Below, piece by piece: positions 1-12,723 of a stretch of 14,351 nt of DNA; positions within the stretch are counted from its first letter, which is position 1; the number at the start of each line of letters is the position of its first letter. A model generated the notes under the pieces. The model searched no databases. It had not been told where the DNA came from and saw only the letters and a list, made by a program, of their open reading frames with translations. The position numbers and the translations under genes were made by a program. Where the stretch lies: the NCBI GenBank assembly GCA_004298675.1, contig SCRI01000032.1, forward strand, positions 1-14,351, read 5' to 3'. Source of the DNA: a bacterium. GTDB lineage: Bacteria > Vulcanimicrobiota > Vulcanimicrobiia > Vulcanimicrobiales > SCRA01.

Positions 1-1086
1 GCCGCGAATCGTCAACTGGTCGTCGATGCGCCCGTAGACGCCGCGTGGCAGACGCGGGTAGGTGCGTCCGCAACTGCACGACTCGTCCGTCCACGTGGTG
101 AGGTCGCCCGCGGCGAAGCGGATCATCGGCATCGAAGTGCGCTCGAGGTGCGTGTAGACGGGCGTTCCCTCACAACCGTACGGCACGGGGAGCAGCGTCT
201 CGACGTCGCAGACTTCGGTATACACGATGTCTTGCCAGAGGTGCATTCCGCGCCGCTCACTGCACTCGCCGTTGGTGATCCACGGCGTCATCTCCGCGGT
301 CGAGCCGCTATCGAAGACGGCGGCACCGAACGTCTCCTCCAAGCGCGCTTTGACCGACGGGATGCCGGCGCCCGGCTCGCCGGAGAAGAACATCTTGCGG
401 AACCCGAGCGCGCGCGGATCGAGACCCTCCTGGCGCGCAACTTCGGCCAGGCGCAGCGCGTACGAGGGCGTGCCGTAGAATCCGCTTGGCTGGACTTCGC
501 GTAGCCACGGCAGCGCCTGCCGTGTCATGCCTGGGATCCCCGCTCCGAACGGAAAACACGTCATGCCCAGGCGCTCTCCGCCGGCAAGCGCACCCCACGA
601 GCCCATGTAGAGCGAAAAGAGCGAGGCCACGAAGAGGGTGTCCGATGGCCTGAAGCCCATCGACCACATGACGCGCGCCCCAGCCTCCGCGATGCGCGAC
701 CAATCGCCGCGGGAGACGATGAACCCGGTGGGCTTACCGGTGGTGCCGCTGGTGCCATGAATGCGCACCCAGGTCGAGGGCTCGTCGCACGTGTAGCGGC
801 CGAACGGCGGATGGGCGGCCTGCTCCGCCCGCAGCTCTTGTTTGCGCAAGATCGGCATGCGGGCGAAATCCGCAAACGTGCGCAAATCGCCGGGCTCGAA
901 GCCCGCCGCACTCCACTTCTCGCGATAGAACGGCGAGCGTTCCCAGCACCACGCTACCTGCGCCTTCAACTTAACGAGAATCAGCTCGTTGCGCTGTTCC
1001 GGCGCCATCGTTTCAACGCCGCGATCCCAGTAGGGTTCCTCCGGCGCGGGCACATAGGACCCATCAAAGAGCGGCGGCCAGAGCAT
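1..1086 (-). CDS. PaaK-type acyl-CoA ligase, C-terminus cut off by window edge
   Basis: This is an adenylate-forming CoA ligase related to phenylacetate-CoA ligase. It activates a carboxylic acid with ATP and joins it to CoA in the cytoplasm. The visible 362 codons are open to base 1. The nucleotide-binding loop HGTSGTTGKPTGF lies at residues 110-122, and an early segment with SPFYREKW (51-58) is typical of PaaK. The last visible residues, GRIDDQLTIRG, match the GRSDDMLIIRG hinge of the family, so roughly 70-80 C-terminal residues are missing. The ATG at 1086 lies 8 bases after the mutase small-subunit stop, with no strong Shine-Dalgarno sequence, which suggests coupled translation in one operon. 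From context the likely substrate is the free acid of the mutase substrate, such as 2-hydroxyisobutyrate. The sequence alone does not show this, and an aromatic acid is possible. The family call is firm and the substrate is inferred. Confidence 0.86.
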   Translation of the reverse strand, partial: MLWPPLFDGSYVPAPEEPYWDRGVETMAPEQRNELILVKLKAQVAWCWERSPFYREKWSAAGFEPGDLRTFADFARMPILRKQELRAEQAAHPPFGRYTCDEPSTWVRIHGTSGTTGKPTGFIVSRGDWSRIAEAGARVMWSMGFRPSDTLFVASLFSLYMGSWGALAGGERLGMTCFPFGAGIPGMTRQALPWLREVQPSGFYGTPSYALRLAEVARQEGLDPRALGFRKMFFSGEPGAGIPSVKARLEETFGAAVFDSGSTAEMTPWITNGECSERRGMHLWQDIVYTEVCDVETLLPVPYGCEGTPVYTHLERTSMPMIRFAAGDLTTWTDESCSCGRTYPRLPRGVYGRIDDQLTIRG

Positions 1087-1094
1087 CGTCTGCG

Positions 1095-1526
1095 TCACGC
1101 GAGTCCAAGCCTCGCGCGACGCTCGCCGGCATGCTCTCTCACCGCCGCCACGAGCGCTGCAAGCGGCTGTTCTGCGTCGTAGACCGCCGCAACACCCATC
1201 TCGATCAGCTTGGGCACATCCGTAGCCTGGATGACGCCGCCCGCGACCACCGCGATGTCCTGGGCGCTCTGGCTGCGCAGCAGCTGGAGGATCTTCGGAA
1301 AGATCGTCATGTGGGCGCCGGAGAGAATCGAGATACCGATGACGTCGGCATCCTCTTGAATGGCCGTCTCGACCACCTCTTGCGGCGTTTGATGGAGGCC
1401 CGTGTAGATGACCTCCATGCCGGCATCGCGCAGCGCGCGTGCAACGATCTTCGCGCCACGGTCATGCCCGTCCAAACCGGCCTTGGCCACGACGATGCGG
1501 AAATTCTGTGCCGATGTCGTCATCAT
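1095..1526 (-). CDS. hcmB: Acyl-CoA mutase small subunit, cobalamin-binding (HcmB-like)
   Basis: This is a separate B12-binding subunit of an adenosylcobalamin-dependent acyl-CoA mutase, 143 residues, close to the length of free-standing small subunits. The base-off/His-on signature D-x-H-x-x-G is present at D19, H21 and G24 (GLDGHDRG), where H21 is the lower axial ligand. The S-x-L motif (S66, L68) and the glycine pair G96-G97 complete the cobalamin fold. Two consecutive ATGs are possible starts. The first overlaps the large-subunit stop (TGATG), so the subunits are translationally coupled and made in similar amounts. The sequence alone cannot separate HcmB from the small subunits of methylmalonyl- or isobutyryl-CoA mutases; the assignment follows its partner. 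No MeaB-type G-protein chaperone is seen in the window, but it could lie beyond base 1. Confidence 0.9.
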   Translation of the reverse strand: MMTTSAQNFRIVVAKAGLDGHDRGAKIVARALRDAGMEVIYTGLHQTPQEVVETAIQEDADVIGISILSGAHMTIFPKILQLLRSQSAQDIAVVAGGVIQATDVPKLIEMGVAAVYDAEQPLAALVAAVREHAGERRARLGLA

Positions 1527-3202
1527 CAGAAAATCGCCAGCTCCTTGTAACGGCCGAAGAGCGGCACGAGCGTGTTGACCACCTCTCCGGCGGTCGCGCG
1601 CGCGCGCACGGCATCGATCGTGTACGGCATGAGGTTCTCTCGCTCGTCCTTGGCCGCATTCGCCAGGCGCTCGAGCGCCGCGGCCACGGCACGCTGGTCC
1701 CGTGCGGCTTTGGTCCGGTGCAGCCGCTCGATCTGGTTGCGTTCCCAGGCCGGGTCGACGCTATGCAGATCGAGCTCCGGCGACTTGCCGTTCTCGCTGC
1801 GGTATTTCGTCACGCCGACGAATTCGAACTCGTGCGCGTCCTTCTTACGCGCGAGCTCGAAGGCGGAGTCGGCAATCTGCTGTTGGAGCCAGCCCTGCTC
1901 CACGCACGCGATGGTGCCGCCGCGCTCTTCGATCTGCCGGAAGTACTCTTCTACCTGCCGCTCGATGCGGCCGGTCAGCGACTCCACCGCGTAGGAGCCG
2001 GCTAGCGCGTCGATCGTCCCCGCCACGCCGGACTCTTCGAGCAGGATCTGCTGCGTGCGCAGCGCGATCTTCATCGCCGTCTCCGACGGAATCGAGAGCG
2101 CTTCATCGTAGCCGTTGGTATGGAGCGACTGCGTGCCGCCCAACACCGCGGCCAGCGCCTCGATGGTGGTGCGGACGATGTTGTTCAGCGGCTCGCGCGC
2201 GGTGCACGACGCACCCGCCGTCTGGGTGTGGAAGCGCAGCCGCATCGACTCCGGCTTGCGCGCGCCGTACTTCTCCTTCATCGTACGCGCCCAGATACGG
2301 CGGGCGGCCCGGAACTTCGCCACCTCTTCCAAGAAGTCGATCTGCGAAACGAAGAAGAACGACAGCCGTGGCGCAAAATCGTCGACGGACCCGCCGGCTG
2401 CGATCACTTCTTCCACGTAGGCCATGCCGGCGGCGAGCGTAAACGCCACTTCCTGCGCCGCGGTCGAGCCGGCTTCGCGAATGTGGTAGCCGCTGACGTT
2501 GACCGGGTTGTAGTGCGGCATGCGGGCGGTGGAGTAGAGAATCGAGTCGCGCACCAGACGCATCGCAGGCCGAGGCGGATAGATCCACTCCTTCTGAGCG
2601 ATATACTCCTTGATGATGTCATTTTGCACGGTGCCGGCTAGGCGCTCGAGCGGGATGTTACGCTCTTGGGCAAGCACGACGTACATCGCCAACAGGATCC
2701 ACGCCGTCGGATTGATCGTCATCGAGACGCTGATCCGATCGAGCTCGATGTCTTTGAAGAGCTCGTCCATGTCATCGACGGTGTCGATCGCGACCCCCTC
2801 GCGCCCGACTTCGCCTTCACTGCGCGGGTCATCCGAGTCGTAGCCCATGAGGGTGGGCATGTCGAAATCGACGGAGATGCCGGTCTGACCCTGCGCGATC
2901 AAGTAGCGAAAGCGCGCGTTGGTGTCCGCGCCGGTCCCGTAGCCTGCGATCTGGCGCATCGTCCAGGGCTGGGCCCGGTACATGGTGGGGTAGGCGCCGC
3001 GCGTGAACGGATAGCGCCCCGGAAATCCAAGGTCGCGAGCGTAGTCGACGTCGACGTCCGCCGGCGTATAGAGGCGCTCGTGCTGCTCGCCGCTGAAGGT
3101 TTCGAAGCGCTCCCGGCGCTCCGGCCGGCGGCGGGCAAACTCGGCGACGTCCTGTTGCTCCCAGGCGGCGCGCTCCGCCGCGATCCGCTCGCGATCACTC
3201 AT
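1526..3202 (-). CDS. hcmA: 2-hydroxyisobutyryl-CoA mutase-type large subunit (HcmA-like)
   Basis: This is the catalytic large subunit of a B12-dependent acyl-CoA mutase, 558 residues, without a fused cobalamin domain, close to HcmA in length. The TIM-barrel landmarks are present: TRGAYPTMYRAQPWTMRQ (67-84), SVDFDMPTLMGYDSD (110-124), and the catalytic His in SGYHIREAG (H240). Three pocket positions decide the substrate. Methylmalonyl-CoA mutase has Tyr, Ala and Arg; isobutyryl-CoA mutase has Phe, Ala and Gln; HCM has Ile90, Asp117 and Gln208. This protein has I85, D112 and Q203, with exactly the HCM spacing (27 and 91). The predicted reaction is 2-hydroxyisobutyryl-CoA to (S)-3-hydroxybutyryl-CoA or a close homologue. 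The ATG at 3202 was chosen because AAGGAG lies 7 bases upstream; a TTG 6 codons earlier has no such support. The gene starts 4 bases after gntR. Confidence 0.9.
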   Translation of the reverse strand: MSDRERIAAERAAWEQQDVAEFARRRPERRERFETFSGEQHERLYTPADVDVDYARDLGFPGRYPFTRGAYPTMYRAQPWTMRQIAGYGTGADTNARFRYLIAQGQTGISVDFDMPTLMGYDSDDPRSEGEVGREGVAIDTVDDMDELFKDIELDRISVSMTINPTAWILLAMYVVLAQERNIPLERLAGTVQNDIIKEYIAQKEWIYPPRPAMRLVRDSILYSTARMPHYNPVNVSGYHIREAGSTAAQEVAFTLAAGMAYVEEVIAAGGSVDDFAPRLSFFFVSQIDFLEEVAKFRAARRIWARTMKEKYGARKPESMRLRFHTQTAGASCTAREPLNNIVRTTIEALAAVLGGTQSLHTNGYDEALSIPSETAMKIALRTQQILLEESGVAGTIDALAGSYAVESLTGRIERQVEEYFRQIEERGGTIACVEQGWLQQQIADSAFELARKKDAHEFEFVGVTKYRSENGKSPELDLHSVDPAWERNQIERLHRTKAARDQRAVAAALERLANAAKDERENLMPYTIDAVRARATAGEVVNTLVPLFGRYKELAIF

Positions 3203-3206
3203 CGAT

Positions 3207-3863
3207 CTACTCCTTCTCAAGGCGCCCGATGACGGCTGAGAGACTGGCGGCCAAATGTTGGCGCAAGAGGCGCCGCGCCTGCGCGCCCTTGCCCTGCTCG
3301 ATCGCCAGGCCGATCTCGTGATGCTCGGCCCAGACGTGCTGCGGGAAGTGCTCGAAACGCAGGTATTCGTGCATCACGCGCTCGATCTGACTCCAACACT
3401 GCGCTTGCCAGCGCTCGACGTATTCGTTGCCGCTGGCTTTACCGATGGACTGGTGGAAGGCGCGGTCGAGCCGGATCAGCGCCGGCAGATCACCGCGCTT
3501 TGCCGCCGCCTCGCCGTCGGCTCGAAACGGTGCCGCGAGGTTGCGGACTTTCGCCCGCGCAGCCTGCTCGGCTGCCACCTCCTCCAGCGCAACGCGGACG
3601 CGATAGAGGTTGCTCACGCCCGCGCTGGTGAGGTGCGTGACGATGGCGCCGCGATTGCGCTCGAAACGAACCAAATCCTCGGCTTCCAAGGTCCGCAAGG
3701 CCTCACGCAGCGGGATGCGGCTCACGCCCAGCTGTTGCGCGAGCTCTTCCTGGACCAGGCGCGCGCCGGCGGCTAGACGGCCCGATACGATCGCCTGGCG
3801 CAGGGCATCGAGGACGACGTCGTAGGTGGAGGCGCGGTCCACCGTCTTCAGGTTTAGAACCAT
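3207..3863 (-). CDS. GntR-family regulator, FadR/FCD subfamily
   Basis: This is a one-component transcription factor of 218 residues. An N-terminal winged helix-turn-helix spans about residues 10-78 and contains QQLGVSRIPLREALRTLEAE (43-62), the recognition-helix region of GntR proteins. The C-terminal all-helical FCD domain keeps a likely metal or ligand site: D133 and H137 in DRAFH, H182 in AEHHEI and H203 in RQHL. Many FCD regulators sense small carboxylates and repress neighbouring catabolic genes. It is the first gene of the mutase-ligase operon, and a perfect palindrome overlaps its start, so autoregulation is likely. The ATG at 3863 lies inside that palindrome and has no Shine-Dalgarno sequence. 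A GTG at 3842, giving 211 residues and keeping the whole DNA-binding domain, is a reasonable alternative start. The effector, possibly a 2-hydroxyacid or its CoA ester, is inferred from context only. Confidence 0.9.
   Translation of the reverse strand: MVLNLKTVDRASTYDVVLDALRQAIVSGRLAAGARLVQEELAQQLGVSRIPLREALRTLEAEDLVRFERNRGAIVTHLTSAGVSNLYRVRVALEEVAAEQAARAKVRNLAAPFRADGEAAAKRGDLPALIRLDRAFHQSIGKASGNEYVERWQAQCWSQIERVMHEYLRFEHFPQHVWAEHHEIGLAIEQGKGAQARRLLRQHLAASLSAVIGRLEKE
3210..3215 (-). promoter_or_regulatory. Shine-Dalgarno site for hcmA, inside the gntR 3' end
   Basis: On the minus strand AAGGAG is the last sense sequence of the GntR gene, directly before its TAG stop. It lies 7 bases upstream of the ATG at 3202. 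It fixes the mutase start and implies that hcmA translation follows termination of gntR. Confidence 0.8.
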
Positions 3864-3877
3864 ATTGTATACAATAT
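3862..3877. promoter_or_regulatory. Operator palindrome O1 at the gntR start
   Basis: The perfect 16-bp inverted repeat ATATTGTATACAATAT overlaps the ATG of gntR. The same 16 bases recur exactly at 5653-5668. The GT...AC half-site arrangement matches the general form of GntR/FadR operators. It probably binds the adjacent GntR protein and controls gntR-hcmA-hcmB-ligase. A TACAAT element within it could also serve as a -10 box, which would let the repressor block the promoter directly. Confidence 0.75.
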
Positions 3878-3901
3878 ACGAAGTTCGGTCACGATTGTCC
3901 A

Positions 3902-3937: not shown

Positions 3938-5647
3938 CTAGGCCCGCCAGCGGCGCTCCGCCTCGTCCCATGCGGCTAGCGGCTGCAGATCGGGCACGCC
4001 GGCTAGTCCGGATTTGGCGTCGGACGAGACGGCCTCGGGCGTGACGATGACGTCGAGCAGCGCGGGTCGCTGAGCAAACGCCCGTGCCAGGGCGCCGGCC
4101 AGGTCCTCCGGCCGCTCGACCCGCTCGCCATACATTCCAAAGGCGCGCGCCATCGCGGCGTGATCGGAAAACTGCAAACGCGTACCGGCCACCTTACCGT
4201 ACGTGACCTGCTGGTCGTGTGCCTCGATCTGCCAGGCGCCGTTGTTGGCGACGACGATCACCACCGGCGCACGATACCGGGCAGCCGTGTCGAGCTCGAT
4301 CGCATTGAAACCGAAGGCACCGTCGCCTGTCGCCACCAGCACGTTGCGGTCCGGACAGGCGAGGGCGGCGGCGATGCCATAGGGGACGCCCACGCCGATG
4401 CAGCCGAGCGAGCCGGGATCGAGCATGACCGGAGCCGAGAGGCCGACGCGCGCGAAGCTGAGGAAGTCGCCACCGTCGATCACGGCGATGCCGGCGCCGT
4501 CAAGTTTTTCCTGTAATGCCGAGAGCACGCGGTACGGATGCATGCGGCCGTCGCGCCCTGCAGGTGCGCCGGCCATCTCCGCACGCAGCCTCGCCGCTCG
4601 CTCCTCGTGACGGCGACGCAAGGCGGAAGTCCACGCGCGATCGGTAGCGGGGATGCGATCGCCCGCCGCCGCGACGAGCGCGGTCAAAGTATGGGCTGGG
4701 CTAGCGAGGATCTCTACCGCCCCGCGGCGGTTATCACGCAGCTCCGAGGGCGTATCGGCGATGCGCACAAAGGCTGCCTCGCCAAAAACCGCGGGCGAAC
4801 CGAAGGCCAGTTGAAAGTCGAGCCGCCGCCCGACGGTGACCACGACGTCGGCTTCGGCCATCGCCGCACCGCGGACAGCCCCCACAAATGATTCGTGCTG
4901 CGCCGGCACGAGCCCGCGGCTCTCACCCGTGTCGAGATAGAGCGCGCCCAGCGCGTCGAGCAACCGCATGAGCTGCGGACCGGCGCCGCGCGCGCCGCGC
5001 CCGGCCACGACCAGCGGGCGGCGCGCCGACCACAGCAACTCCACGGCCTCCGCGACAAGCTCGGGAGACGGCAAGAGCACGGGAGCGGGTTTGCGACGCA
5101 GCCGCTCTCCCAATTGCAGAGGTCGCGGCACCTCGGCGCGCAGCGTATCGGTGGGAAAGTCGAGATAGGCGGGCCCAGGTTCACCGCCCTCGCCTAGCGC
5201 ACGCGAGATTGCCTCGTCGAGCTCCTGCAGCACCAGCGCCGGTTCGCGCACGGTGCGCGCGTAGCGCGTGACGGAGCGCAGCAGCTGCGTGTGGTCGAGG
5301 TCTTGGAGCGCGCCGCGATTCTCTTGCGGACGCGGCGGCGTTCCCGAAAGCACCAGCACCGGCGCACGGGAAACGTGGGCGTTGACGATGCCGGTCATGG
5401 CGTTGGTGACGCCCGGCCCCGCCGTCACGAGGGCGACACCGAAACCGCCCGTGACCTCGGCATGGGCCTGCGCCATATGCACCGCCGCGCGCTCGTCACG
5501 CACGCCGACGATCGCGATACCCTCGGCATCGAGACACATCCAGATCGGCATGATGTGACCGCCGCAGAGCGCAAAGACGCGCTCGACTCCCCGCGCGCGC
5601 AGGAGACGCGCAATCAAGGCCGCGGCGCTATCGCCAAGGAGTTCCAT
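3938..5647 (-). CDS. ThDP-dependent 2-hydroxyacyl-CoA lyase-like enzyme
   Basis: This is a thiamine-diphosphate enzyme of the acetolactate synthase/oxalyl-CoA decarboxylase superfamily, 569 residues and full length. The N-terminal Pyr domain has the cofactor-activating Glu (E53 in VRDERAAVHMA) and TAGPGVTNAMTGI (75-87). A central Rossmann-like domain follows. The C-terminal PP domain has the metal and diphosphate motif GDG (441-443) leading to NN at 468-469. The family also includes acetolactate synthase, benzoylformate decarboxylase and 2-hydroxyacyl-CoA lyase. I favour lyase because of the adjacent CoA ligase and HCM-type mutase and because the C-terminal tail (SSDAKSGLAGVPDLQPLAAW, 541-560) resembles the active-site lid of actinobacterial 2-hydroxyisobutyryl-CoA lyase as I remember it. 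That enzyme splits 2-hydroxyisobutyryl-CoA into acetone and formyl-CoA. The ATG at 5647 matches the family N-terminus; no Shine-Dalgarno sequence precedes it. The superfamily is certain, the lyase role probable. Confidence 0.8.
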   Translation of the reverse strand: MELLGDSAAALIARLLRARGVERVFALCGGHIMPIWMCLDAEGIAIVGVRDERAAVHMAQAHAEVTGGFGVALVTAGPGVTNAMTGIVNAHVSRAPVLVLSGTPPRPQENRGALQDLDHTQLLRSVTRYARTVREPALVLQELDEAISRALGEGGEPGPAYLDFPTDTLRAEVPRPLQLGERLRRKPAPVLLPSPELVAEAVELLWSARRPLVVAGRGARGAGPQLMRLLDALGALYLDTGESRGLVPAQHESFVGAVRGAAMAEADVVVTVGRRLDFQLAFGSPAVFGEAAFVRIADTPSELRDNRRGAVEILASPAHTLTALVAAAGDRIPATDRAWTSALRRRHEERAARLRAEMAGAPAGRDGRMHPYRVLSALQEKLDGAGIAVIDGGDFLSFARVGLSAPVMLDPGSLGCIGVGVPYGIAAALACPDRNVLVATGDGAFGFNAIELDTAARYRAPVVIVVANNGAWQIEAHDQQVTYGKVAGTRLQFSDHAAMARAFGMYGERVERPEDLAGALARAFAQRPALLDVIVTPEAVSSDAKSGLAGVPDLQPLAAWDEAERRWRA

Positions 5648-5650
5648 GTC

Positions 5651-5670
5651 GAATATTGTATACAATATTC
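5651..5670. promoter_or_regulatory. Operator palindrome O2 between the lyase and larA-like genes
   Basis: GAATATTGTATACAATATTC is a perfect 20-bp inverted repeat. Its inner 16 bases (5653-5668) are identical to O1 at 3862-3877. It ends 3 bases before the lyase ATG and lies 51 bases upstream of the larA-like ATG, so one bound dimer could control both divergent genes. Two identical AT-rich palindromes in this GC-rich sequence, each at a gene start and one at the gntR gene itself, make a GntR regulon the simplest explanation. Confidence 0.8.
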
Positions 5671-5721: not shown

Positions 5722-6972
5722 ATGACGTATCCGACGCTTCACCCTCTGCGCGACCTCCGCGAGAACCGCGGGCTTGAGGATATCGCCGCCACGACGGCCG
5801 CCGCCTTGGAAGCGTGCGGCCTGGGCGCCCGCATCGTGCCCGGTGCACGCATCGCGATCACCGCCGGCAGCCGCGGTATCACCGATATCGCCGGGGTTTT
5901 GCGCGCGGTGGCCGCTTTCGTCCGCGCGCGCGGTGGCGAGCCCTTTGTGATTCCAGCGATGGGTTCTCACGGCGGGGGAACTGCCGAGGGTCAAGTGACG
6001 ATCCTGCGCGAGCTCGGCATCACGGAAACGAGCATCGCCACGCAGATCCACGCGCAGATGGACGTGGTCGACATCGGCACAGCAGGCGGCATTCCCGTCG
6101 TCTGCGACGCCCTCGCGGCGGCAGCCGACGGCATCATCATCGTCGCTAGAGTCAAGCCCCACACCGATTTCACCGGCACCATCGAGAGCGGCATCTTGAA
6201 GATGAGCGCGATCGGGCTGGGGAAAGCAGCCGGCGCCAAGATCTACCATTCGGCCTTCGCACGTGACGGCTACGAACGCGTGATCCGCGCCGTCAGCGCG
6301 GTCGCGCTCGAGCGCCTTACGATCCTCGCGGGGGTGGCGATCGTCGAAGACAATCGCGGCCGCACGCATACCATTGAAGCCAGCGCGGCTCCGGACGTGG
6401 TTGCCATGGAGGAGCGGCTGCTCTGTCTTGCCCGTGAGCTCATGTCGACACTGCCGTTCCCGGAGTTAGATCTGCTCATCGTCGACGAGATGGGCAAGAA
6501 CGTCTCGGGCACCGGAATGGACACGAACGTCACCGGGCGCGCCACCGACGGCCGCTCTCAGAAGGTCCCCACGCCGCTGGTCAAGCGGCTCTTCGTCCGA
6601 GATTTGACGGAGGCTTCACACGGCAACGCCACCGGGATCGGACTGGCTGACTTCTGCAGCCAGCGCCTCGCCGACAAGATCGACTGGCAGGCCACCTACT
6701 TGAATGCCCTGACGGCCGCGCAACCCGCAGCCGCACGCCTGCCAATCGTCTGCCCGAACGATCGCTTCGCCGTCGACAACGCACTCGTTGCCGCCGGAAT
6801 CGAAGATGGCGCCGCGGCGCGCATCGCGAGGATACACAACACGCTGCACATGGAGGCGATCTACGCCTCACCGGCGGCGCTACGCGACGTCACCGATCGC
6901 GAGCGCTACGCTGCCGGCGACGAATGCGATGCACTGACGTTCGACCAAGACTCGAACCTGCTACCTCTGTAA
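5722..6972 (+). CDS. LarA-like protein (nickel-dependent lactate racemase family, DUF2088)
   Basis: This 416-residue protein belongs to the LarA/DUF2088 group, whose known members racemise or epimerise 2-hydroxyacids with a nickel-pincer nucleotide. Motifs seen are PAMGSHGGGTAEG (78-90, with H83), VKPHTDFTG (144-152, with H147) and ESGILKMSAIGLGKAAGAK (155-173). H147 and a Lys in the last stretch (K160 or K168) would correspond to the Ni-ligand His and the cofactor-linking Lys of LarA. The usual N-terminal SDxTRP-type motif is replaced by ITAGSRGIT (46-54), so this is a divergent branch and racemase activity is not proven. The ATG at 5722 has AAAGG 7 bases upstream. The leader carries a short GGGCTG/CAGCCC hairpin (5686-5700). 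It is divergent from the lyase with O2 between them. No larB, larC or larE cofactor genes are visible. Confidence 0.75.
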   Translation: MTYPTLHPLRDLRENRGLEDIAATTAAALEACGLGARIVPGARIAITAGSRGITDIAGVLRAVAAFVRARGGEPFVIPAMGSHGGGTAEGQVTILRELGITETSIATQIHAQMDVVDIGTAGGIPVVCDALAAAADGIIIVARVKPHTDFTGTIESGILKMSAIGLGKAAGAKIYHSAFARDGYERVIRAVSAVALERLTILAGVAIVEDNRGRTHTIEASAAPDVVAMEERLLCLARELMSTLPFPELDLLIVDEMGKNVSGTGMDTNVTGRATDGRSQKVPTPLVKRLFVRDLTEASHGNATGIGLADFCSQRLADKIDWQATYLNALTAAQPAAARLPIVCPNDRFAVDNALVAAGIEDGAAARIARIHNTLHMEAIYASPAALRDVTDRERYAAGDECDALTFDQDSNLLPL

Positions 6973-8187: not shown

Positions 8188-8624
8188 TACGGTTTCATGA
8201 CGCCGTAGCCGGCGGCCGAAAGCACCGCCATCACGAACATCAGCACGCCCATCGTCGCCCCGACGCCGCGGACGTAACGCTCGCCCGCGGCGACGGCGAC
8301 GTATCCAAGCGCGGCCAGCACGAGGTGCTCGAGGGCATGCAGCGACGCGTGCGCGTCGAGATAGTCGTACAACGACGGCCACATGACGAACATCATCGCG
8401 ATCGGAGCAAGCACCGTCAGCACGAGCCAACGCGCACCGGAGGCGGGTGAGCCTTTCGCACTGGGATCACGCACGAAGAACGCCGCGGCGGCACCCAGGA
8501 GCACCAGCCCGCTGTGATCGAGGTGATGAATCGCGATTGGTTCGTCCACGCCGGCAAAAGCCGGGATGACCGAAGCCAGGACGGCGATGATACCGAGGGT
8601 CCATGCAATACCGCGGCGCGTCAT
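8187..8624 (-). CDS. Small His-rich membrane protein of the heme-copper operon
   Basis: I do not recognise a named family. This 145-residue protein has about five hydrophobic segments: roughly residues 7-24 (possibly a cleaved signal ending AFA), 38-51, 66-83, 95-112 and 118-140. Two histidine clusters stand out: HHLDH (33-37) at the start of the second segment, and H92, H96, H100 (H-x3-H-x3-H) leading into the fourth, with E99 beside them. Such spacing places the second set on one helix face and could bind copper or heme, as in the CtaG type of oxidase assembly factor, but homology to CtaG is not established here. Its ATG overlaps the subunit I stop (ATGA), so it is coupled to the oxidase-type genes. 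A third subunit, an assembly factor and a copper-delivery protein are all possible. Confidence 0.7.
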   Translation of the reverse strand: MTRRGIAWTLGIIAVLASVIPAFAGVDEPIAIHHLDHSGLVLLGAAAAFFVRDPSAKGSPASGARWLVLTVLAPIAMMFVMWPSLYDYLDAHASLHALEHLVLAALGYVAVAAGERYVRGVGATMGVLMFVMAVLSAAGYGVMKP

Positions 8625-10093
8625 GCCGTACGCCTCCGTGCGATAGCGGCCAAGCGTATCGCTTCAACGAGCACGATGACGAGCGCGATCAAGAGGATGA
8701 TCACGCCCACCGACGCCAGGCCCGATAGCTCCGGACCGGGCGCGGGCTGCACGGCATACCGGCGCGGCACCCCTTCGGCGCCAGCGATGTAGAAACCGAG
8801 CAAGAACAAGCCGCCGCCGCCGAAGAAACCCAACCCCACCAGCCAGCGCACGGCGGCTGAGCTGATGCTGCCGCTGCGTTCCTCCAGCATCATGAACGTC
8901 CAACCCAGCACGAAGAGCACCACGCCCTCCAACAGATAGGTGTGGAAGTGCGCCGGCACCCAGAGCGTGTTGTGCAGATCCGAGTTGATGGGAATGGTGG
9001 CGTCGAGCACGGCGCCAAAGCCGCCCACGATCCATCCCACCAGGCCGCCGAACATGAAGAGCGATCCGAGACTCCAGCGCATGCGCGAGCGGTAGACGAG
9101 CATGAGGCTACCGTACACGGTCACGAGCGCCGTCGGAATCGAGGAGAGGTAGGAGGCGGCCTCGCCGATGTACTGCAGCGCGCGAATCTGCACGAAGTCC
9201 ATGTACAGATGGTGGAAGTATGCGATGGCGACGAACACCAGCGTCCCCCACCAGGCCACGGCGAGCGCCACCGAGGTATGGTACTCGCGATCCGCGTAGC
9301 GCGGCATCCCCACGTAGACCCCCGCCACGGCCATGTAGATCGTGAGGTTCGCGAAGGCGTGACCGAAGAAGTACGTGAGATTCTTGGCCCAGAGGGGGTC
9401 GATCACGACGCTTGGTGAGATCCAATGCACGATCAGCGCGACACCGATGATCATGCCGATGGTGCCGGTGAGCACACCGTCGACCGCGGCCACGAGCGCC
9501 GCGTATGCCTGCGGCGGCGGCGGCGTCCGGCCACTCTGCTCAAAGGCGCGGCGGTGAAACACGTAGTCCCAGCCGAGGGCGCCGCGGAAGCCGCCATAGC
9601 GGCTGAGCACGCATCCCAGCATTTGCGTGCACCACATCATCCAACCGATCGTCACCAGCGCGACGCCGATCAGATAGAAGCCGGTGGCCCATGACGGCCA
9701 CCACGTCCCCACGAACGGCAGGGGATAGAGGAACGTCCACGCGGCTCCGAATTGGCCGGCCAGCACGCTGATGACGACAGCGATGGCGCCTGCGACGATA
9801 AAGCCCCAGGCCCAGTACGCCAGCCGCTCATCGAGGACGGTCTCCAAGCGCATGAGGTACCAGAGCTCACCCATCGACGCCACGGCGACGGCGGTGATCA
9901 TGCCGATCCCGTGCAGCGTCATGAGCGAGTAGAACGTCTGCGGCGCATACGCGATCCAGCCGGCCTGCTCCATGCGCATACTGAAACCGATTAGGATCAT
10001 GAGCGCGAAGATGGCGAATCCGGTGATGAGATACGTCCACATGACGCGGCGAGCGGCGCTCAGCTCGCGTGGATCAAGCGTCGTCGTCATCAT
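8621..10093 (-). CDS. Heme-copper oxidase superfamily subunit I, B-family-like, Tyr-to-Asn (candidate NO reductase)
   Basis: This is a polytopic catalytic subunit of 490 residues with about 12-13 membrane helices. All six metal-binding His are present: H61 (low-spin heme, TLHGIGM), H245 and HH294-295 (CuB, FFGHAFAN and YFHHLYMDF), and H382 and H384 (VPAHFHTY, high- and low-spin hemes). HNTLWVPAHFH and VPRRY match the B (ba3) family. The residue four after the helix VI His, which is the His-cross-linked Tyr in A- and B-family oxygen reductases (HPEVY, HPIVY), is N249 here. This Tyr donates an electron and a proton when O2 is split, and its loss is typical of NO reductases. Two adjacent ATGs are possible starts, 10093 or 10090. 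The first overlaps the subunit II stop, and GAGG lies just upstream. The superfamily is certain; the NO reductase role is an inference. Confidence 0.9.
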   Translation of the reverse strand: MMTTTLDPRELSAARRVMWTYLITGFAIFALMILIGFSMRMEQAGWIAYAPQTFYSLMTLHGIGMITAVAVASMGELWYLMRLETVLDERLAYWAWGFIVAGAIAVVISVLAGQFGAAWTFLYPLPFVGTWWPSWATGFYLIGVALVTIGWMMWCTQMLGCVLSRYGGFRGALGWDYVFHRRAFEQSGRTPPPPQAYAALVAAVDGVLTGTIGMIIGVALIVHWISPSVVIDPLWAKNLTYFFGHAFANLTIYMAVAGVYVGMPRYADREYHTSVALAVAWWGTLVFVAIAYFHHLYMDFVQIRALQYIGEAASYLSSIPTALVTVYGSLMLVYRSRMRWSLGSLFMFGGLVGWIVGGFGAVLDATIPINSDLHNTLWVPAHFHTYLLEGVVLFVLGWTFMMLEERSGSISSAAVRWLVGLGFFGGGGLFLLGFYIAGAEGVPRRYAVQPAPGPELSGLASVGVIILLIALVIVLVEAIRLAAIARRRTA

Positions 10094-10611
10094 TGTACCT
10101 CAAAGCTCGACTGCATCTGAGCATGCGCAACGCCGCAATACTCCAAGCAACGCACGACATATTTTCCAGGCGTGGTGAAATCGACCCGAAGGTGATTGAC
10201 GTAGTCCGGCATGGCCTGGACTTGGGCCACGAGTTTACCGGCCGGGTCGTAGATGCCGAAGCCGTGGTTGACGTCGGTGGCAGTAACGTCGAAGACGATC
10301 GGTGTCTTCGACGGCACAGAAGGCGGCAGCGTGAAGCTGAACTGCTGCGCCACCACTTTGAAATGCTGTTCCGAGCCGAGCACTTTCGCACCCGAGTAAG
10401 GGAACCACGGTACGGAGACCGCGAAGGCGATGATAACGGCCACGCCGAGGATGCGCGCCCACCATTTGCGCGCGGCGTAACCCATGCGGGACACCTCGGC
10501 CTGCGGCAGCGGCTTGCCTAGTGAGCTCAGCGCGACCGCCGTCATAAACGCGATGATGCACCCGGCGCCGATCAAGAACACCACCAGAACGATGGTCGTA
10601 GTCTCAGCCAT
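10090..10611 (-). CDS. CuA-containing subunit II of the heme-copper enzyme
   Basis: This 173-residue membrane-anchored cupredoxin accepts electrons from cytochrome c or a cupredoxin and passes them to subunit I. Two N-terminal hydrophobic segments (about 5-27 and 53-70) precede the external beta-barrel. The binuclear CuA site is complete: H116 in VNHGFGIYDP, then C155, E157, C159, H163 and M166 in CLEYCGVAHAQM. It is short, like ba3-type subunits, although those usually have only one helix. AGGAGAGG lies 8 bases before the ATG at 10611, a strong ribosome site. It is the first gene of the operon. A weak promoter (TTGCCT, 18 bases, TACGAT) can be drawn about 45-75 bases upstream. CuA does not rule out an NO reductase, since CuA-bearing NO reductases are known (qCuANOR and NorSY types). 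Confidence 0.9.
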   Translation of the reverse strand: MAETTTIVLVVFLIGAGCIIAFMTAVALSSLGKPLPQAEVSRMGYAARKWWARILGVAVIIAFAVSVPWFPYSGAKVLGSEQHFKVVAQQFSFTLPPSVPSKTPIVFDVTATDVNHGFGIYDPAGKLVAQVQAMPDYVNHLRVDFTTPGKYVVRCLEYCGVAHAQMQSSFEVQ

Positions 10612-11118: not shown

Positions 11119-11304
11119 GGACGAACCCTCCTCATTGGGCGGATGGCAAGACCGGCCTAGAGCATACCCCGGTCACGCGTCACCTAAGCCTGGCGCGCGG
11201 GGCGGCGCGCCCACAAGGTGGCGGCCCGCGCGCAAGTGAACGGGAACCGGACAGAGCGCCGATCGCATCGTGGCCGGTCGACGTGCCGACAAGAGGCGGT
11301 TCCA

Positions 11305-12723
11305 ATGAAGACGGAAGTGGTTAGCCAAGAAGCGCGCCGGACGATTCCCGACGGATTCTTCGATCCCATCGAGCAGCGGTTCGGCTCGCGCTTCTCGCGC
11401 GCGGAGGCGGTTCGCGATCATCACGGTCGCGACGAGTCGCCATACCCTCCCGTGCTTCCAGATGCCGTGGTGTACGCACACGGAACGGAAGACGTGGCGT
11501 GGCTGGCACGCCACTGCAACCAGCACGGCGTGCCGCTGATTGCCTTCGGTGCCGGCTCGTCGCTGGAGGGGCACCTGCTGGCCGTGCAGGGCGGGGTCAC
11601 CGTTGATCTTTCGGAGATGAACAAGATCGTCTCCATCGATGCCGAGGACCTCACCGCCACGGTGCAGGCGGGCGTCACGCGCGAGGAACTGAACGAGCGA
11701 CTGCGCCACACGGGCCTGTTCTTCCCCATCGACCCCGGCGCCAACGCCAGCCTGGGCGGCATGTCGGCAACGCGTGCGTCCGGAACCAACGCCGTACGCT
11801 ACGGCACCATGCGCGAAAACGTCATGAATCTCGAGGTGGTCACGGCCGATGGACGCGTAATCAAGACGGCGAACCGGGCGCGCAAGTCCTCGGCGGGCTA
11901 CGATCTCACGCACGTCTTCGTCGGCAGCGAAGGCACCCTGGGCATTATCACCGAGGTCACGGTGCGTCTGTACCCGCGGCCGGAGGCCACCTCCGCGGCC
12001 ATCTGCAATTTCCCAACGGTGGAGTCCGCGGTGGACAGCGTGATCGAGATCATCCAGATGGCGATCCCGGTGGCGCGCGTGGAGTTCATGGATACGCGGG
12101 CGGTCAAGGCTACCAACGCGCATAGCCATCTCACGTTGCGCGAATCGCCCTTACTGTTGTTCGAGTTCCACGGCAGCACCGCAGCCATCAAGGAGCAGGC
12201 CGAGGCGGTCCAGAGCATCACGCACGAGCACGGCGGCATGGATTTCGAGTGGGCCGAGCGGCCCGAAGAGCGCAGCCGCTTGTGGAAGGCGCGGCACGAC
12301 GCCTACTTCGCCGGACTGCAGTTGCGTCCGGGCTGCCGCTCCAGTACCACCGACGTCTGCGTGCCCATTTCGTCTCTGGCTCGCTGCGTGACGGAGACCG
12401 CCGCCGAACTCGACCAAGCCAGCTTCCCCTACACCATCGTGGGCCACGTGGGTGACGGCAACTTCCACGTGCTGATGCTGCTCGATCCCAACAACCCCGC
12501 CGAGTGGGAAGAGTCCGAGCGCATCAACGCCAACCTCGTGCGCCGGGCCATCGCCATGGACGGCACGTGCACCGGCGAGCACGGCGTGGGGTTGCACAAG
12601 ATGGAATTCATGGTGGCCGAGCACGGCGAAGACGCGCTCGACCTCATGCGCAGCTTGAAGCGCGCGTTCGACCCCAACAACATCCTGAATCCGGGCAAGA
12701 TCATCCCTCCCCACGCCGGGTAA
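11305..12723 (+). CDS. FAD-linked D-lactate dehydrogenase / 2-hydroxyacid oxidase (LDHD/GlcD type)
   Basis: This 472-residue flavoprotein oxidises D-2-hydroxyacids, such as D-lactate, to 2-oxoacids. The N-terminal PCMH FAD domain has FGAGSSLEGH (81-90), PGANASLGGMSATRASGTNA (144-163) and FVGSEGTLGIITE (205-217). The C-terminal FAD-oxidase cap has TTDVCVPIS (348-356), GHVGDGNFH (380-388), GTCTGEHGVG (420-429) and NPGK (462-465). GTNAVRYGTMRENVMNLEVV is nearly the version found in eukaryotic-type LDHD, so I prefer D-lactate dehydrogenase over glycolate oxidase GlcD; no glcE or glcF genes follow. The ATG at 11305 was chosen because AGAGG lies about 9 bases upstream and the family N-terminus begins here; the open frame further upstream is GC-rich and unlike the family. 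A partner role with the upstream larA-like racemase is possible but is not shown by linkage. Confidence 0.92.
   Translation: MKTEVVSQEARRTIPDGFFDPIEQRFGSRFSRAEAVRDHHGRDESPYPPVLPDAVVYAHGTEDVAWLARHCNQHGVPLIAFGAGSSLEGHLLAVQGGVTVDLSEMNKIVSIDAEDLTATVQAGVTREELNERLRHTGLFFPIDPGANASLGGMSATRASGTNAVRYGTMRENVMNLEVVTADGRVIKTANRARKSSAGYDLTHVFVGSEGTLGIITEVTVRLYPRPEATSAAICNFPTVESAVDSVIEIIQMAIPVARVEFMDTRAVKATNAHSHLTLRESPLLLFEFHGSTAAIKEQAEAVQSITHEHGGMDFEWAERPEERSRLWKARHDAYFAGLQLRPGCRSSTTDVCVPISSLARCVTETAAELDQASFPYTIVGHVGDGNFHVLMLLDPNNPAEWEESERINANLVRRAIAMDGTCTGEHGVGLHKMEFMVAEHGEDALDLMRSLKRAFDPNNILNPGKIIPPHAG

Follow-up and report, generated by a model that had tools for sequence, protein, structure and literature searches.

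Identity of the mutase

This locus raises the question of whether a gene that automatic annotation would name methylmalonyl-CoA mutase (MCM) encodes a 2-hydroxyisobutyryl-CoA mutase (HCM), and of what the genes around it would then be doing. Judged from its sequence, the hcmA product is most probably the large subunit of HcmAB in a regulon for breaking down 2-hydroxyisobutyrate or some other tertiary 2-hydroxy acid very close to it. In the window, by which we mean the whole stretch of 14,351 nt that was analysed and which coincides with the complete contig C15, the mutase genes and the ligase gene beside them are arranged as follows.

1526-3202, minus strand: hcmA, B12 mutase large subunit (4r3u_A match, trees, I85/D112/Q203)
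1095-1526, minus strand: hcmB, B12-binding small subunit (top PDB match 4r3u_C, 145 bits; PF02310)
1-1095, minus strand: HCL-like 2-HIBA-CoA ligase, truncated on its 3' side where the contig stops (6hdw match)

The hcmA open reading frame is complete (ATG at 3202, stop at 1528-1526, 558 aa), and the Ile, Asp and Gln that the original prediction had placed at 85, 112 and 203 can all be read in it, in the contexts TMRQ-I-AGYG, GISV-D-FDMPT and EYIA-Q-KEWIYPP. The predicted spacing proved exact: I85 and D112 are 27 residues apart and D112 and Q203 are 91 apart, and because the phmmer alignment to 4r3u is ungapped across the pocket region, this equals the spacing of I90/D117/Q208 in Aquincola tertiaricarbonis HcmA. 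The segment SMTINPTAWILLAMY, which had been called HCM-like, is present as well, its counterpart in HcmA being SFTINPSAWILLAMY. Against PDB sequences (phmmer), the product scored 712 bits with 4r3u_A vs ~450 bits with MCM. The AF2 model of HcmA had 4r3u as its nearest fold (E 4e-50); its mean pLDDT was 76 and I85 lay within a low-confidence stretch, and the model was therefore left out of our reasoning on pocket geometry. The pocket by itself is unable to tell 2-hydroxyisobutyryl-CoA from its C5 analogue.

The misleading label that the original prediction expected was indeed what the curated models gave, since the only families over their cut-offs were Pfam PF01642 'Methylmalonyl-CoA mutase' and TIGR00641 'methylmalonyl-CoA mutase N-terminal domain', and the PM1 plasmid HcmA, near-identical to 4r3u in the tree, is likewise annotated 'methylmalonyl-CoA mutase family protein'. 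These Pfam and NCBIfam names, together with ~42% identity to MCM and 50-59% identity to proteins resembling isobutyryl-CoA mutase (ICM), speak for taking the hcmA product as an MCM or an ICM, as automatic annotation would have it, a reading that we consider extremely improbable. Its triad is neither the Tyr/Ala/Arg (YAR) of MCM nor the Phe/Ala/Gln (FAQ) of ICM, as had been pointed out, and it was placed outside both groups in two trees. Moreover, the genome encodes three other mutases, one FAQ (L002) and two YAR (L003 and L004), from which the hcmA product is distinct as a fourth; since these remaining mutases carry the FAQ and YAR triads, the hcmA product is not the housekeeping MCM. Taken together, triad, trees and paralogues led us to reject an MCM or ICM identity.

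Among 120 distinct homologues drawn from named genomes, same-phylum genomes and plasmids, the triad was FAQ in 77, IDQ in 38, YAR in three and VDQ in two. A tree had been proposed as a check on the prediction, and our main tree was built from 70 sequences after removal of the three pocket columns and the NPTAW segment. In it the IDQ and VDQ sequences formed one clade with 4r3u (support 100/95), the single IDQ exception being a long-branch haloarchaeal protein just beyond the clade. The hcmA product fell with 4r3u, outside the MCM clade and outside an ICM-like group that was set by triad, in trees that included neither an RcmA reference nor a characterised non-fused ICM; a bigger, quick tree agreed on the HCM-clade placement. 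Because the IDQ/VDQ sequences match, with that one exception, a clade recovered without the pocket columns, the IDQ signature does not appear by chance.

Two outlying cases deserve mention. The Sinorhizobium plasmid mutases (L131 and L133) carry VDQ and sit on a long branch inside the HCM clade; L133 has an enoyl-CoA hydratase and another AMP-ligase as neighbours in place of HCL, and the two mutases possibly use a different substrate. The Natrinema zhouii plasmid (L117) encodes an IDQ mutase beyond the main clade, with NSPAP replacing NPxAW; the same cluster contains HCL and also an HACL-like lyase that scored 543 bits vs a cut-off of 600.

Linkage of mutase and ligase genes

The start codon of hcmB overlaps the hcmA stop, and hcmA is adjoined by a separate B12-binding subunit that is nearest to the HCM small subunit. 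The ligase has as its top PDB match 6hdw, a 2-hydroxyisobutyryl-CoA synthetase (465 bits over 365 aa, vs 193 for phenylacetate-CoA ligase); its C-terminal part is missing, and the orthologue in a same-genus genome (G029) extends beyond the point at which the ligase of the window is truncated. With the GntR-family regulator gene listed below, the locus thus has the form of an operon of mutase, 2-HIBA-CoA ligase and GntR. For loci with sufficient flank, and scoring an HCL-like ligase if it lay no more than 4 kb from the mutase, such a ligase adjoins 33 of 36 IDQ mutases vs none of 46 other mutases (Fisher p 8e-20, a value made too strong by related sequences), and the linkage extends over several phyla and one haloarchaeon. 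Tree, adjoining ligase, clade-wide ligase linkage and the triads of the paralogues therefore all support the HCM identity that was predicted, at the level of sequence.

No meaB gene lies in the 14,351-nt window. In one same-genus genome (G030) hcl is followed by meaB and then a cobalamin adenosyltransferase gene, and in the other (G029) the run is gntR-hcmA-hcmB-hcl-hacl. We considered whether the cluster could be a product of misassembly or contamination, which is unlikely because the order hcmA-hcmB-hcl is repeated in these two same-genus genomes.

A lyase gene beside the same operator-like palindrome

Upstream of hcmA, the window contains the following features.

3207-3863, minus strand: GntR/FCD-family regulator, gntR (PF00392 and PF07729), with a likely, sequence-inferred ATG at 3863
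3864-3875, no strand: operator-like palindrome ATTGTATACAAT, copy 1, inside a 19-nt repeat at 3862-3880
3938-5647, minus strand: ThDP-dependent 2-hydroxyacyl-CoA lyase, Actinomycetospora type (HACL) (7pt1, NF058623)
5655-5666, no strand: operator-like palindrome ATTGTATACAAT, copy 2, its 19-nt repeat 95% identical to that of copy 1
5722-6972, plus strand: LarA-like nickel-pincer-nucleotide isomerase, group 22 (NF052515, 468 bits, cut-off 400)

The original prediction had read the locus as one of a mutase only, and this part did not hold: a 2-hydroxyacyl-CoA lyase is co-located beside the same operator motif, and the picture therefore changes from a single route to a branch point. The lyase scored 589 bits with 7pt1, vs ~211 bits with the remaining HACL and oxalyl-CoA decarboxylases (OXC), and 816 bits with NF058623, whose cut-off is 600. 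It keeps E65, L127, Q128, I492 and E493 as well as the C-terminal size-limiting lid, which are the catalysis and size-selection residues and the lid reported for AcHACL (PMC8760513). With the cut-off passed and both the E493 helix and the C-terminal lid in place, the protein belongs with the AcHACL-type lyases.

Copy 1 of ATTGTATACAAT abuts the likely gntR start, ahead of gntR-hcmA-hcmB-hcl, and overlaps the -10 hexamer of the best-scoring promoter-like site, a sigma-70-like TGGACA-17-TATATT at 3901-3873 on the minus strand. Copy 2 precedes the likely lyase start by 7 nt and the start of the LarA-like gene by ~55 nt. These are the only two copies in 3.03 Mb of genome, where ~0.008 would be expected. 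Each of nine same-order genomes has exactly one ATTGTATACAAT, always directly upstream of hcmA; the exact sequence is absent from both same-genus genomes scanned, and G029, where the lyase gene lies within the operon, has one degenerate operator site at the gntR start. The motif thus goes with the genes, a lyase gene that stands apart having its own copy. Since ATTGTATACAAT precedes both gene sets here, and hcmA in the nine same-order genomes, mutase and lyase are probably members of a single regulon and act on a common intermediate. The operator also seems to be confined to this GntR subfamily, because the TGTATACA core is missing at the 21 scanned HCM/HACL loci that have other regulators. 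The GntR protein would presumably bind and repress at the ATTGTATACAAT sites.

Lyases over the NF058623 cut-off were found in six of 149 genomes of the phylum and HCM-clade mutases in 22, and all six lyase genomes also hold such a mutase (hypergeometric 5e-6, not phylogenetically corrected). The two genes are clustered in four of the six, namely this genome, G029, G118 and G125, the last two with the order hcmA-meaB-hcmB-hacl-hcl. Because the other 16 of the 22 mutase-bearing genomes are without a lyase over the cut-off, the pathway does not depend on the lyase. Elsewhere, the PM1 plasmid cluster holds mutase, ligase and an AcHACL-type lyase over the cut-off (742 bits); divergent lyases below it occur in the mutase clusters of Natrinema zhouii, one Terriglobia MAG and one Rokubacteria MAG, and a Chloroflexi MAG cluster has a lyase fragment at the end of a contig. 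A different arrangement was observed in G095, where the neighbours of HACL are an aldehyde dehydrogenase, a PQQ alcohol dehydrogenase and a ligase that is divergent (L124), resembling a locus on an Azoarcus KH32C plasmid (L116), and HCM is located on a separate contig (L191).

In the case of the LarA-like gene, a score over the NF052515 cut-off and a larC gene elsewhere in the genome (G000:C62) indicate that the product belongs to the LarA superfamily; it had no match among PDB sequences, and a second LarA-like gene is present at G000:C67. The known LarA-type mechanism needs a C2 hydrogen. As 2-HIBA has none, the isomerase would be incapable of acting on it by that mechanism. It is possible that the gene is a regulon member; the idea that it is a core member of the pathway is unsupported, no LarA homologue having been detected beside the HCM clusters of relatives. 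Further along, genes for cytochrome oxidase subunits I and II (8621-10608) lie between the HACL/LarA region and a gene for a GlcD-like FAD oxidase (11302-12723), and the cytochrome oxidase genes gave no sign of regulon membership.

Proposed pathway and alternative readings

Our analysis shows sequence identity and phylogeny, the pocket residues, the conserved catalytic residues of the lyase, gene linkage and how specific the operator motif is across the genome; substrates, GntR binding and repression, catabolic direction and division of labour we infer. It can be envisioned that the ligase would convert the free acid to its CoA ester, and that HcmAB would turn 2-hydroxyisobutyryl-CoA into 3-hydroxybutyryl-CoA by B12 radical chemistry, leading on to acetyl-CoA. 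The product would probably be (S)-3-hydroxybutyryl-CoA because Asp112 is present, this Asp being responsible for the (S)-form preference in HcmA. The co-regulated lyase would offer a second exit, from 2-hydroxyisobutyryl-CoA to acetone and formyl-CoA (and on to formate), or to butanone and formyl-CoA with the C5 analogue, and GntR acting on the ATTGTATACAAT operators would control both the mutase operon and the lyase. The lyase may relieve a block at B12 shortage, or it may handle the C5 acid.

Candidate sinks are found in the genome, one being a 3-hydroxybutyryl-CoA dehydrogenase homologue (45% identity). Another is a formate-dehydrogenase-like gene (L202, G000:C87:14000-18500) that has an in-frame UGA, the residues around it (ENQARI*HSSTVPGL) being typical of selenocysteine; formate-dehydrogenase-like matches with an in-frame TGA likewise occur in G029, G118 and G125, and the lyase route of Actinomycetospora is accompanied by selenium-dependent formate oxidation (PMC7176365).

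The direction of flow could also be the opposite one, in which the lyase joins acetone or butanone with formyl-CoA, the mutase linearises the product, 3-hydroxybutyryl-CoA goes to acetyl-CoA and the ligase does no more than salvage leaked acid, a scheme already put forward for sulfate reducers. Such enzyme logic equals that of the acetone pathway of Desulfococcus/Desulfosarcina (PMC7888143), the lyase reaction is reversible (PMC8760513), and the operator motif is found at both lyase and mutase. We nevertheless regard this assimilatory direction as quite unlikely: HCL is a conserved member of the cluster, and the sulfate reducer D. biacutus, which runs that direction, is without HCL (PMC7176365); there is no clear source of formyl-CoA, with no dedicated formyl-CoA transferase (Frc) over the cut-off in this genome (G000); and the formate dehydrogenase fits formate disposal equally well or better.

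A further alternative is that the main substrate is another short 2-hydroxyacyl-CoA, such as 2-hydroxy-2-methylbutyryl-CoA (C5) or lactyl-CoA, and that 2-hydroxyisobutyryl-CoA is secondary. Not only does the lyase lid admit C4-C5 (PMC8760513), but AcHACL also cleaves the C5 ester as well as the C4 (PMC7176365), one known HCM is slowly active on lactyl-CoA (PMC11599936), and the LarA-like isomerase, of a kind for secondary 2-hydroxy acids, adjoins the second operator copy. We think this unlikely, given that the ligase, over the part that is present, is nearest to a 2-HIBA-specific enzyme, that the triad of the hcmA product is identical to that of HcmA, and that LarA went undetected at the HCM clusters of relatives. 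More speculatively, lyase, mutase and ligase might make up a bidirectional hub, taking short ketones and formyl-CoA through 2-hydroxyisobutyryl-CoA to 3-hydroxybutyryl-CoA, with the LarA-like isomerase adding secondary 2-hydroxy acids; the likelihood of this seems low to us, and, if true, it would mean natural one-carbon-dependent ketone assimilation via an AcHACL-type lyase in an uncultured phylum.

The reading that we prefer, catabolism of 2-hydroxyisobutyrate or a close analogue, would bring a metabolism that has been known mainly in degraders of fuel oxygenates and in a few isolates to a group of uncultured bacteria. These probably belong to Candidatus Eremiobacterota, since paralogues from the same order group in the trees with MAGs of that name; we found no paper on a 2-hydroxyisobutyrate locus in that phylum in the literature searched. 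The rule of residues plus neighbours re-annotates 'methylmalonyl-CoA mutase' genes in many phyla, and the common operator motif poses the question of why one cell would retain two enzymes for one intermediate, a mutase that conserves its carbon and a lyase that splits it. Fresh orthologues of both enzymes would be useful given the purification difficulties with the known ones, as one study succeeded in purifying only three of six HCM homologues (PMC11599936), and AcHACL precipitated when first prepared (PMC7176365).

Comparison with known systems

The mutase resembles HcmAB of Aquincola tertiaricarbonis (4r3u) and Methylibium petroleiphilum PM1 in its split subunits, I/D/Q triad, NP(S/T)AW motif and clade, and in having HCL and a GntR regulator adjoining the mutase genes. 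However, it is 57-58% identical to these and sits on a sister branch within the clade, and the order here is gntR-hcmA-hcmB-hcl, whereas theirs is hcmB-hcl-meaB-hcmA. The lyase is like Actinomycetospora AcHACL (7pt1) in its NF058623 membership, E65/L127/Q128/I492/E493, lid, and linkage to HCL and GntR; unlike A. chiangmaiensis, which is without a mutase (PMC7176365), the genome studied here has lyase and mutase under a common operator motif. In the acetone pathway of Desulfococcus/Desulfosarcina (PMC7888143), a ThDP enzyme and a B12 mutase are likewise arranged around 2-hydroxyisobutyryl-CoA, but those organisms are anaerobic, their mutase is RcmAB-like, and their ThDP enzyme is ~22% identical to AcHACL and comes without HCL (PMC7176365, D. 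biacutus).

Clusters of mutase with HCL and of lyase with HCL have already been described (PMC7176365), and the combination of all three is already known from Mycolicibacterium sp. ELW1. Its ibc cluster 2 brings together, as does the present locus, mutase, HCL, a TPP lyase and a GntR-type regulator (PMC13188929), and also encodes a MeaB-like protein beside the FadR/GntR regulator (PMC13188929; 2026). The ELW1 cluster differs in being plasmid-borne in an isobutylene degrader, where the lyase was termed a possible minor route (PMC13188929).
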